A stretch of 51,481 bases of DNA from Nodularia sp. LEGE 06071 (lineage in GTDB: Bacteria; Cyanobacteriota; Cyanobacteriia; Cyanobacteriales; Nostocaceae), in the NCBI RefSeq assembly GCF_015207755.1, contig NZ_JADEWH010000023.1, positions 1 through 51,481 of the forward strand. The letters are read 5' to 3'. Below the pieces are notes generated by a model that searched no databases, was not told the DNA's origin, and was given only the letters and a program-made list of their open reading frames with translations. Within the stretch, counting starts at the first letter, position 1. Every line of letters starts with the position of its first letter. The position numbers were made by a program, and so were the translations under genes. Shown in pieces: positions 852 through 47,138 of the stretch.

Positions 852-913
852 ATAAACGCCCGATGCTCAATCTGGTCGCATCCTAGCATCTCAAAGCTAC
901 ATTTCATCTCCCC

Positions 914-1105
914 TCCTCGCTTGCCTACCGTGTACACACAAGTGATCGAATCGCCCCCTAACCCCCAATTCTGGGGGAACAAGAATTTTCAAAGTCCCCC
1001 AAAATTGGGGGATTTAGGGGGCAGAACAAGCTCAAATGCAGACAGGTAGGATTTGTGTGTACACCGTAGTCCTCGCTTGCGGGGAGGGGCTGGGGGTGGG
1101 GTTCT
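914..1105. repeat. Dispersed hairpin repeat interrupted by MITE copy A
   Basis: Removing the element at 925-1069 and one copy of the 11-base duplication TCCTCGCTTGC joins the flanks into CCCCTCCTCGCTTGC followed by GGGGAGGGGCTGGGGG. This is a hairpin with stem CCCCTCC/GGGGAGG. It then reads GTGGGGTT and matches, in reverse orientation, the repeat at about 22941-22981 (GACCCCACCCCTAACCC then GCAAGCGAGGAGGGG). It is therefore an older dispersed repeat that received a later insertion. It could also serve as a terminator for sufE. Confidence 0.6.
925..1069. mobile_element. MITE-like 145-bp element, copy A
   Basis: The left end is CTACCGTGTACACACAA and the right end is the reverse complement of CTACGGTGTACACACAA. 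The interior has C-runs and G-runs (CCCCCTAACCCCCAATT, then CCCCCAAAATTGGGGG, then TTTAGGGGG) that can fold into a long hairpin. It is flanked by an 11-bp direct repeat, TCCTCGCTTGC, at 914-924 and 1070-1080, which is read as a target-site duplication. It has no coding capacity. It is closely similar to copy B (15448-15592, opposite orientation). A transposase acting in trans is inferred but not present here. Confidence 0.85.
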
Positions 1106-15243: not shown

Positions 15244-15663
15244 TAAAGATTAAAATTTTATTTTAATCAAGGAACGGCCTTGGCGCTAGCCTCTCCCTTT
15301 GGGAGAAGAAGCCTAAAGCCTTCGGCATAGCTTCGCTTACCGCGTAGCGTCTTTGTCAACAGAAGAGAAGAACGCCAAGTCAGAGAGGCTTGTAGTGAGG
15401 ACTCACCGAAGAACCTCACCCCCCAGCCCCTCTCCTTAGTAAGGAGACTACGGTGTACACACAAATCTTGCCTGTCTGCGTTTGAGCCTGTTTAGCCCCC
15501 TAAATCCCCCAAGTTTGGGGGACTTTGAAAATTCTTGTTCCCCCAGAATTGGGGGTTAGGGGGCGATTGGATCACTTGTGTGTACACGGTAGTTAGTAAG
15601 GAGAAGGGAGATTTTGACAAATTACTCTCAATTTATGCAATAATTCAACTTTTTTAGAGATAT
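15244..15663. other. Repeat-filled spacer
   Basis: The first part (15275-15385) is a run of GC-rich short palindromes (CTCTCCCTTTGGGAGAAG, AAGCCTTCGGCATAGCTTCG, CTTACCGCGTAGCG) typical of Nostoc dispersed repeats. It is followed by an ACCTCACCCCCCAGCCCC repeat that is interrupted by MITE copy B (15448-15592). Open frames in this stretch are made of repeat sequence and are not believed to be genes. Confidence 0.6.
15448..15592. mobile_element. MITE-like 145-bp element, copy B (inverted relative to A)
   Basis: The element begins CTACGGTGTACACACAA, ends with the complement of CTACCGTGTACACACAA, and is again exactly 145 bp. A 12-bp direct repeat, TTAGTAAGGAGA, flanks it (15436-15447 and 15593-15604). 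Removing the element restores CCTCTCCTTAGTAAGGAGAAG, a hairpin. The reverse complement is close to copy A throughout, including CCCCCAATTCTGGGGGAAC and AAGAATTTTCAAAGTCCCCC. Confidence 0.88.
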
Positions 15664-38368: not shown

Positions 38369-38635
38369 ATGCAAATTAAAAGATGGGAATCTCCCCGTAG
38401 AGAAGGGAGAAACGATAAAGGCAGAGGCGGTTCAGCCAGAAAGCGCCAACTCAAAAAACAAAGGCAAATGTTACGCCAACGCCTAAAAGATGCTAACAAG
38501 CCAAACAACAACAAAAATTACGGACTGGGGGAAGAAAAAAATCTTCCCCCTTTTTTGTATCCGGTATACACACAAGTTGAACTAGAGCGAGTTTCCAGCC
38601 ACAAAAAGCTCTGGGTAGTCGGAGATGAGTTTTAG
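38369..38635 (+). CDS. Small basic protein, unknown (annotated frame may be too long)
   Basis: The 88-codon frame begins MQIKRWESPRREGRNDKGRGGSARKRQLKKQRQMLRQRLKDANK, rich in Arg/Lys, consistent with a nucleic-acid-binding peptide of about 50 residues. The second half is read through an intrinsic terminator (38527-38556) and repeat-like sequence, which is unusual for a real gene. Either the protein simply continues or the true end is disrupted. The terminator overlapping the frame argues that transcription of the upstream tRNA-Leu/ORF unit stops inside it. Function unknown. Confidence 0.42.
   Translation: MQIKRWESPRREGRNDKGRGGSARKRQLKKQRQMLRQRLKDANKPNNNKNYGLGEEKNLPPFLYPVYTQVELERVSSHKKLWVVGDEF
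38527..38556 (+). terminator. Intrinsic terminator
   Basis: GGGGGAAGA pairs with TCTTCCCCC across an A6 loop, followed immediately by TTTTTT. This is the clearest rho-independent terminator in the window and would end transcripts from tRNA-Leu and the small basic ORF. Confidence 0.85.
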
Positions 38636-39712: not shown

Positions 39713-40235
39713 TCTTTTGATCTCTCTATAGGTTATGCCGGAAGCTTTTAGTGGCTTTTTGGCAGCAAACCGAGAAGGTACTTAGCATAGCTAGTAGCGA
39801 TCGCCTCCGACGGGCAGCGCCATCGCTTTATCTCTATCTTTTGTATTTGTAGCTTGTTCATATTGCTGCTTTGCGTCTGATAGAGTTTTTTTTTGCATCA
39901 TTCAATATTTCGGGAGCATCGACCCAATGAAGCGTTAAGGAATGCTCTTCCTGAAGGCTACGGTGTACACACAAGTCTTATCAAGTTACCTAACAGCGTT
40001 TCGATCCCCCCTAGCCCCCCTTGAAAAGGGGGGAAAATTTCTTAAAGTCCCCCTTTTTAAGGGGGATTTAGGGGGATCAAATCACTTGTGTGTACACTGT
40101 AGCTTCCTGAAGGAGAGAGGAGGTAAGTCAAAAAAAGCAGATGCAAATTAGCATTTAGATTATTCTCCTAAATTTATGCTCAAGGTACTTGACATTACAC
40201 GGGGAGAAGATGCTATAGTTATTCAAGTCAATCGA
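39713..40235. other. Spacer with MITE copy C before tRNA-Gln
   Basis: This 523-base spacer contains AAGGTACTTAGCATAGC AT-rich text, a GC-rich short repeat (about 39797-39826) with GCGATCGCC, MITE copy C (39958-40102) and 40103-40235 AT-rich sequence that must hold the tRNA-Gln promoter (ATGCTATAGTTATTC nearby). Confidence 0.55.
39958..40102. mobile_element. MITE-like 145-bp element, copy C
   Basis: Ends CTACGGTGTACACACAA and the complement of CTACAGTGTACACACAA enclose exactly 145 bp. An 11-bp direct repeat, CTTCCTGAAGG, flanks it (39947-39957 and 40103-40113). The interior differs from copies A/B (TCCCCCCTAGCCCCCC, AAAAGGGGGG, AAAGTCCCCC, AAGGGGGATTTAGG) but keeps the C-run/G-run hairpin plan. 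The restored target GCTCTTCCTGAAGGAGAGAG is an imperfect palindrome. Confidence 0.85.
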
Positions 40236-46690: not shown

Positions 46691-47138
46691 TTATTCACTT
46701 TTACAAAGATTTAAGGATACGAAATAATTAATGGTAATTTCGCACAAATTAACACAGTAGTTTTCTTTTGTTAGCAAAACTTTTGATTTTGCTTTTTCAG
46801 AAAGCTTTTTTAGTAAATGTAATATTGAGATTTCAAGGAAGAAACCTACGGTGTACACACAAGTGATCGAATTTAGCCAAGCCCTTACAGAATCGCCCCC
46901 TAGCCCCCAATTATGGGGGAACAAGAATTTTCCAAATCCCCCAGACTTGAGGGATTTAGGGGGCAAAATAGACGTAAACGCAGACAGATAGGACTTGTGT
47001 GTACACTGTAGCCCCAGTCTCTAATACAGGACGACGTAAATAAACCGACCATTTAAAATCAATAAAAAGCCTACATCATCAGCTTTTTGACTTTTGATTT
47101 TTGAATTTTGACTTCCGCGTAGCGGTACTAGTCCCTTA
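46691..47138. other. Spacer between hen1 and the SpoIID-like gene, with MITE copy D
   Basis: The hen1 promoter must lie in about 46691-46845 (AT-rich). MITE copy D occupies 46846-47011. From 47035 to 47138 is repeat-like AT-rich sequence (GACTTTTGATTTTTGAATTT, and a GCGTAGCG mini-palindrome), then the end of the SpoIID-like gene. A 91-codon frame at 46691-46966 runs through the MITE and is rejected. Confidence 0.55.
46846..47011. mobile_element. MITE-like element, copy D, 166 bp
   Basis: The left end CTACGGTGTACACACAA and the right end, the complement of CTACAGTGTACACACAA, are kept. The interior resembles copy A but is 21 bases longer because of extra sequence ATTTAGCCAAGCCCTTACAG near the left end. 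No convincing direct repeat flanks it (GAAGAAAC to the left, CCCCAGTC to the right), so it is either older or rearranged. Confidence 0.75.

Follow-up and report, generated by a model that had tools for sequence, protein, structure and literature searches.

According to the cited passages of PMC2266710, target duplications of about 10 bp are normal in the IS4 family, and its IS50 subgroup is characterized by ends of the form CW------Y---CA-A--W-, a size of 1350-1550 bp, and direct repeats of 8-9 bp. Another member of the family, ISRm22 of Sinorhizobium meliloti (IS4Sa subgroup), sits at the symmetry axis of palindromic repeats (excerpts of PMC1525189 and PMC2266710), and its copies without matching repeats are put down to recombination there. 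Repetitive extragenic palindromes are likewise described as the targets of IS1397, ISKpn1, and IS621 (same excerpts, PMC1525189).

Here, we examined a family of short repeats in a 51,481-nucleotide stretch of Nodularia sp. LEGE 06071 (NZ_JADEWH010000023.1, 1-51,481; "the window"); the 5.58-Mb genome of the same strain (G000) is called the own genome below. From the ends, the duplications, the empty sites, the full-length elements with the same ends, and the target motif, all of which were directly observed, we consider it very probable that these repeats are MITEs moved in trans by a Tn5/IS50-like transposase, with a duplication of about 11 bp and a symmetric motif as the target.

MITE copies and their target-site duplications

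An earlier note on this DNA had proposed a MITE-like family, and its description of the copies was largely borne out: the repeats are short and noncoding, with terminal inverted repeats, many copies, and target duplications (Table 1). Copies A, B, and C are indeed each exactly 145 bp between inverted ends, the 17-bp sequence CTACNGTGTACACACAA, and lie beside direct repeats of 11, 12, and 11 bp, while copy D (166 bp) lacks a duplication. The note had also treated the three as one set inserted into unrelated targets, all of them hairpins. This part has to be revised: C belongs to another subfamily (ungapped identity to A is 94% for B and 59% for C), at all three targets, the left arm is rich in pyrimidines and the right arm in purines, and the stem score is 9.3 at A and 8.5 at B but only 5.3 at C.

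Table 1. Positions of MITE copies A to D and their flanking features in the window
Feature	Position	Strand	Description
MITE copy A	925..1069	+	145 bp, main subfamily
Left 11-bp target duplication of copy A, TCCTCGCTTGC	914..924		Present once at orthologous empty site L195
Right 11-bp target duplication of copy A, TCCTCGCTTGC	1070..1080		
Target hairpin of copy A, CCCCTCCTCGCTTGC / GGGGAGGGG	910..1089 (910-924 and 1081-1089)		Interrupted
MITE copy B	15448..15592	-	145 bp, main subfamily, 94% identical to A, opposite orientation
Left 12-bp target duplication of copy B, TTAGTAAGGAGA	15436..15447		
Right 12-bp target duplication of copy B, TTAGTAAGGAGA	15593..15604		
MITE copy C	39958..40102		145 bp, same ends, other interior subfamily (59% ungapped identity to A)
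Left 11-bp target duplication of copy C, CTTCCTGAAGG	39947..39957		
Right 11-bp target duplication of copy C, CTTCCTGAAGG	40103..40113		
MITE copy D	46846..47011		166 bp, same ends, without flanking duplication

Nine matches to the end pattern with at most 3 mismatches were found in the window (0.27 expected), eight of them exact and one, at 38559, a lone match with 3 mismatches. The own genome holds 169 ends with at most 1 mismatch, compared with 0 for the reversed control pattern. Copies were resolved from the surroundings of all 107 exact end matches (the other 62 ends have one mismatch), so that the set covers copies with at least one exact end. Pairing, which favored the partner with a duplication where several were possible, yielded 71 own-genome copies, 41 of them exactly 145 bp long, with some exact ends left unpaired (e.g., L037, L066, L081, L087, and L092). 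A single subfamily accounts for 37 of the 48 copies of 143-148 bp (mean pairwise identity, 94.7%). Of 145 genomes sampled from the family (Nostocaceae), 117 have exact ends; in a phylum-wide sample that includes family members, an exact end was found in 29 of 291 genomes, further orders among them, and was rarer outside the family than inside.

Other repeats adjoin these copies. Another family end lies at most 130 bp outside the element at seven of the 71 own copies (L033, L034, L035, L052, L078, L083, and L088). Several of these have inserted into the hairpin of a second MITE family, the interior of which is the preferred target hairpin. Another dispersed repeat, ACCTCCTCTTCCTGAAGGAGAGAGG..., with further copies in the genus, adjoins or encloses both copy C (window 39900-40150) and L067. 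For the G/C-rich interior of copy A (window 962-1026), matches of about 83-87% identity were found in plasmids of Synechocystis, Gloeocapsa, and Picosynechococcus; they suggest that it may be an older dispersed repeat of its own. In a plasmid search with copy A, mainly this interior repeat was matched, and the best match, in Pseudanabaena galeata, covered 81% of copy A at 79% identity.

The earlier note had allowed that most copies might lack direct repeats and had proposed aligning the flanks of all copies. When the flanks of all resolved copies were compared, duplications of about 11 bp were the rule: 54 of the 71 own copies have one of 9-12 bp with at most 1 mismatch (37 of 11 bp, 12 of 10 bp, three of 9 bp, and two of 12 bp), 41 have a perfect duplication of at least 9 bp, and 17 have no good duplication. 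The same holds for 24 of 36 copies in other genomes (11 of 11 bp, eight of 10 bp, three of 12 bp, and two of 9 bp). Some duplication-less copies look as though they may have recombined, for example two 1,487-bp copies in Nostocales cyanobacterium HT-58-2 (L256 and L257), in which the start of the right flank is common and the left flank is not.

For 20 insertion sites, the element and one repeat copy were removed, and the rejoined flanks were used to look for empty sites across the genus (the own genome and four others); loci L183-L212 were aligned. At eight sites (S01, which is copy A, S05, S07, S09, S10, S12, S14, and S20), the alignment to a relative spans the junction and is homologous on either side of it; S06, S11, S13, and S16, where alignments were partial or within dispersed repeats, were left out of the count. 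The target bases, which the earlier note had cautioned might already be doubled at such sites, are present once at seven of the eight, and S10 has a deletion at the site (G003). The empty site of copy A in G002 (L195) is 81% identical over 240 bases, with the hairpin intact and the 11 bases once. The remaining empty sites were found for S05 in G003, with one change in the hairpin (G004 is rearranged at the site); for S07 in G001; for S09 in G004; for S12 in G001 and G002; for S14 in G002, G003, and G004 (query to bases 188, 229, and 200, respectively), with five arm bases missing in G004; and for S20 in G003 (query to base 180). Because empty sites in relatives hold the bases once, the direct repeats are target-site duplications of a mobile element. 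We conclude that the elements are mobile and make real target-site duplications of about 11 bp.

At the site of L050 (G000:C3:33081), G003 (L210) and G004 (L202) carry the family left end with a different interior and no right end, and about 30 bp of the left flank reappear after that interior. Another subfamily seems to have inserted at this target in a separate event in G003 and G004.

Full-length elements and their transposase

A full-length transposon with the same ends, the search for which the earlier note had recommended, was found in related cyanobacteria at about 1,487 bp. Some end pairs in family genomes lie ~1.49 kb apart and enclose an IS4-family transposase (NCBIfam NF033590); the element is mostly 1,487 bp long, with ends CTACGGTGTACACACAA. 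NF033590 matched in 105 of 145 genomes, over the cut-off in 47. Nine of 30 fetched loci have these ends on both sides, bounding an element of 1,486-1,602 bp, a tenth has one end, and 20 have neither; L173 ends at a contig edge. Both ends and the gene are carried by Calothrix membranacea FACHB-236, Nostoc sp. FACHB-152, Fortiea sp. LEGE XX443, Nostocales cyanobacterium HT-58-2, Nostoc sp. LEGE 06077, and Scytonema tolypothrichoides VB-61278. The transposase gene is open in L166, L168, and L169 and has in-frame stop codons in L167, L170, L171, and L172. The open frame of L166, like that of L169, ends exactly at the last base of the element, so that its stop codon is the terminal TAG. A wider set of 20 end pairings, representing 19 places and including several broken genes, has a duplication at 15 (eight of 11 bp, five of 10 bp, one of 9 bp, and one of 6 bp), and the full-length elements thus show the duplication of about one helix turn (~10 bp) of the IS4 family.

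The transposase aligns to residues 24-452 of the Tn5 transposase (E value, 4e-37), and the L166 open reading frame contains the Y(2)R(3)E(6)K motif, read as Y-TW-R-WRI-E-QLFAIL-K. DDE was placed in the L166 alignment with the Tn5 residues that we take to be catalytic. Together with the NF033590 match over the cut-off, the L166 motif and the Tn5 alignment give the DDE and YREK residues of an IS4-family transposase.

An IS that encodes a transposase and has the same ends, a mark of MITEs, is thus present in relatives; no such IS was found in the own genome. In G002, of the same genus, the intact copy examined (L162) belongs to the other lineage (below). At the three loci with PF01609 genes in the own genome (L100-L102), family ends are absent within 4 mismatches, and the gene in a 2,840-bp interval between two ends (L031) was read by eye as an isopentenyl isomerase, not a transposase. 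The MITEs of the own genome look orphaned, or their IS appears to have been lost from the draft assembly.

Beyond the inverted repeats, the interiors were compared with the IS by z score. For the unpaired end L037, similar to the second MITE family, the match to the 3' coding end of the IS transposase runs 40-50 bp past the inverted repeat (z, 8-9; 300 shuffles). For two paired members of the second family, z was 3.4-5.0, mostly within the shuffle range. No clear likeness to the IS beyond the inverted repeats was found for the main 145-bp subfamily (z of at most 2.1) or for the subfamily of copy C (one z of 4.4, within the shuffle range).

Two other accounts of the repeats were weighed. REP/RAYT-type repeats are defined by a Y1 transposase and have no inverted-repeat-bounded duplication, and we know of no duplication of target bases in Y1 transposition. 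That the elements are such IS200/IS605-like repeats, with GTAG tags and moved by a Y1 transposase, might be read from their CTAC...GTAG ends and their palindromic-repeat targets, and GTAG-tagged REPs are reported from cyanobacteria (cited passages of PMC3733652). We find this barely credible in the face of long terminal inverted repeats and ~11-bp duplications: elements with the same ends encode a DDE-type transposase, and it is these full-length elements that contradict membership. The direct repeats might instead be preexisting sequence of the hairpin repeats rather than products of insertion, as palindromic repeats do hold similar half-sites. Against this stand the orthologous empty sites, including that of copy A in G002, which have one copy only, and a duplication length that is near constant though the target sequences differ; the idea is already refuted for the sites examined and is highly improbable overall.

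In the mechanism that we propose, the 145-bp repeats would be nonautonomous MITEs moved by an IS4-family, Tn5/IS50-like DDE transposase, supplied by elements like those of other cyanobacteria, mostly of 1,487 bp. The transposase would link the element to cuts staggered by 11 bp (range, 9-12), and each insertion thereby duplicates a stretch of that length, presumably by cut-and-paste chemistry. It would pick a short palindromic motif centered on the duplicated bases, about CCYCY-N11-RGRGG, reading the duplex sequence and not an extruded hairpin, and intergenic hairpin repeats, which often hold the motif, would take most insertions. The own genome yielded a single weak NF033590 match (E value, 1.8e-10) and no full-length gene for such a transposase; we therefore infer, rather than observe, mobilization of the MITEs by such an enzyme there.

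Target motif and hairpins

The preference for hairpins suggested in the earlier note survives in part. Most sites do lie in hairpins: the stem score is at least 7.5 at 41 of the 56 duplication-bearing own sites compared with 1.6% of window intergenic positions, and its mean of 8.2, compared with 3.5 for intergenic sequence, sets the targets apart from random spacers. The near-invariant feature, however, is an arm motif and not the hairpin alone. By a simple pattern rule, 24 of the 56 sites are of a CGCTTGC type and 19 of a CTT-N3-AAG type, and the hairpin preference needs correction because many of the hairpins hit are copies of the same repeats. A nonredundant set was therefore picked greedily, comprising 14 of 110 sites that share no 8-mer, two of them of lineage B (below). 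The constant feature of these sites is a symmetric motif just outside the duplication, CYCY-N9-12-RGRG. Of their 28 arms, 93% have C at position 2 and 100% have C or T at position 3; position 1 is mostly T or C, and C is favored at positions 4-5. In a leave-one-out analysis, 13 of the 14 sites ranked among the top 1% of intergenic positions by the arm motif (median, 0.06%) and five did so by stem strength (median, 10%); the stem score is below 6 in nine or eight of the 14, depending on which of two picks of the set is used. YC occupies positions 3-2 on both arms at 46 of 56 own sites and 20 of 25 other sites. Neither genome-wide (166 sites versus 266 for the reversed control pattern) nor in the window outside the elements (0 versus 2.4 expected) is the strict motif enriched.

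The transposase might instead read hairpin shape, as a cruciform or single-stranded stem, with the shared arms only mirroring which hairpins are common. Beyond the high stem scores of the own sites, even the 14 nonredundant sites (in the pick with nine scores below 6) average 5.8, which none of 20,000 random draws reached. When the arms are held constant as CYCT-N11-AGRG, a hairpin (stem of at least 7.5) is present at 10 of 10 occupied own-genome sites and 8 of 16 unoccupied intergenic-like sites (one-sided Fisher P = 0.008), or at 8 of 10 and 3 of 16 by the first criterion of at least 4 of 5 inner pairs (P = 0.003), in a comparison whose occupied sites are interrelated, whose unoccupied sites come from 41 of the 166 sites, all on contigs 1 and 2, whose "intergenic-like" class was judged by open frames, and whose stem criterion was chosen after the first output. 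Hairpins are also slightly stronger at the empty sites of relatives than at their filled counterparts in the own genome (S07, 6 versus 4; S12, 11 versus 8.5; S16 repeat, 6.1 versus 5.8); decay of the hairpin after insertion would make own sites look less paired and bias the nonredundant test against the hairpin. On the other hand, the hairpin sites are heavily redundant and, once thinned, are ranked far better by the arm motif than by the stem; arm pairing does not exceed the expectation from column composition (49 of 98 pairs, 43.6 when shuffled, P = 0.11); and insertions occur without a good hairpin (stem scores of 2 at L286, 3 at L265, 4.1 at L263 and at L254, and 5.3 at L169). We judge hairpin shape an unlikely basis for target choice, to which it may still add something.

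The arm motif extends beyond the elements described so far. Transposases of a second lineage (B) have ends CTATCCATTACCC and are 28-33% identical to L166. In a tree of 30 of 39 proteins (nine fragments or duplicates were dropped, and no named IS50-subgroup proteins are among them), this lineage is a separate branch, with each end type on one side of the branch at 99-100% bootstrap support; end type and tree agree, and rows without found ends lie inside the B and C groups. Duplications of 9-11 bp flank 12 of 21 second-lineage copies, six of these 12 sites have stem scores of at least 7.5, and most sites have the same kind of arms, L176 being an exception. A broken S. meliloti relative of the first type (39% identity) has ends CTACGGCATGCACACA, an 11-bp duplication, and TTCCC / GGGAA arms. 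For a third type, with ends CTGACTTTTCCC, the flanking repeat is 9 bp at L178 and 11 bp with one mismatch at L182, and neither site has arms of this kind. The target code may be older than the MITEs or may have been gained more than once. A broader scenario is speculative and rather unlikely: two deep IS4 lineages would have kept or independently gained the target code, the MITEs would carry the target themselves (in the second family, hairpin CCCCTCCTCGCTTGCGGGGAGGGG), building their own landing sites and nesting there, and the transposase would also read hairpin shape.

Six ends of the second lineage, CTATCCATTACCCACA, occur in the own genome. A stretch starting with this sequence breaks the internal hairpin of a 378-bp MITE (L031:2792-3169, G000:C5), and the PF01609 transposase gene of L100 (G000:C11:44721-45256) lies about 60 bp from such an end.

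Comparison with known systems

Under transposition in trans toward an arm motif, an unexplained class of Nostocales intergenic repeats becomes a testable system, with a candidate transposase, defined ends, a duplication of about 11 bp, and a short symmetric motif. Intergenic palindromes as landing sites offer a simple possible reason why so many copies are tolerated, and target choice by Tn5-like transposases could become easier to understand from a relative of Tn5 whose target motif is strong.

Nezha, a MITE of Nostocales too, is said to prefer A+T-rich sites. Compared by description only, Nezha has ISNpu3-like elements as its proposed mover (cited passages of PMC3049150), and for Anabaena sp. 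90 the excerpted text (PMC3542288) gives 147 MITEs, whole or partial, of 77-541 bp and no partner IS in that genome. Relative to the IS50 (Tn5) subgroup as excerpted above, the ends here (CTACGGTGTACACACAAGT) fit the consensus at 7 of 7 stated positions, counted by hand, DDE and YREK residues are present in the sequence of the full-length element, and most copies, at 1,484-1,496 bp, are within the size range, a few of 1,572-1,602 bp being above it. The elements differ from the subgroup in their strong symmetric target motif and in their duplications (mode, 11; range, 9-12; one outlier of 6). The earlier note had thought a system that duplicates 11-12 bp and prefers hairpins unusual; the duplication is longer than the 8-9 bp of the subgroup, but since ~10 bp is normal in the IS4 family, its length alone is not unusual. 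A cyanobacterial relative annotated as ISSysp3 family, on plasmid pAQ7 of Picosynechococcus PCC 7002, is 65.6% identical to the L166 protein, with ends CTACTGTGTACACACAAGT and a 10-bp duplication.

Nothing related was found in a literature search with end-sequence fragments, most subscription papers lying outside it. The kind of system is known; the combination of ~11-bp duplications, a CYCY...RGRG target, and high-copy, family-wide MITEs was not met in the literature searched, which likewise excluded most subscription papers. Among the elements that target palindromic repeats, IS1397 and ISKpn1 belong to the IS3 family and IS621 to the IS110 family, unlike the IS4-family element here (excerpts of PMC1525189). 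ISRm22 differs in its 6-bp duplications, its subgroup, and its nine copies in the REP elements of one genome, and its position makes it the best precedent that the cited passages (PMC1525189, PMC2266710) offer for insertion of an IS4-family element at the axis of such repeats.
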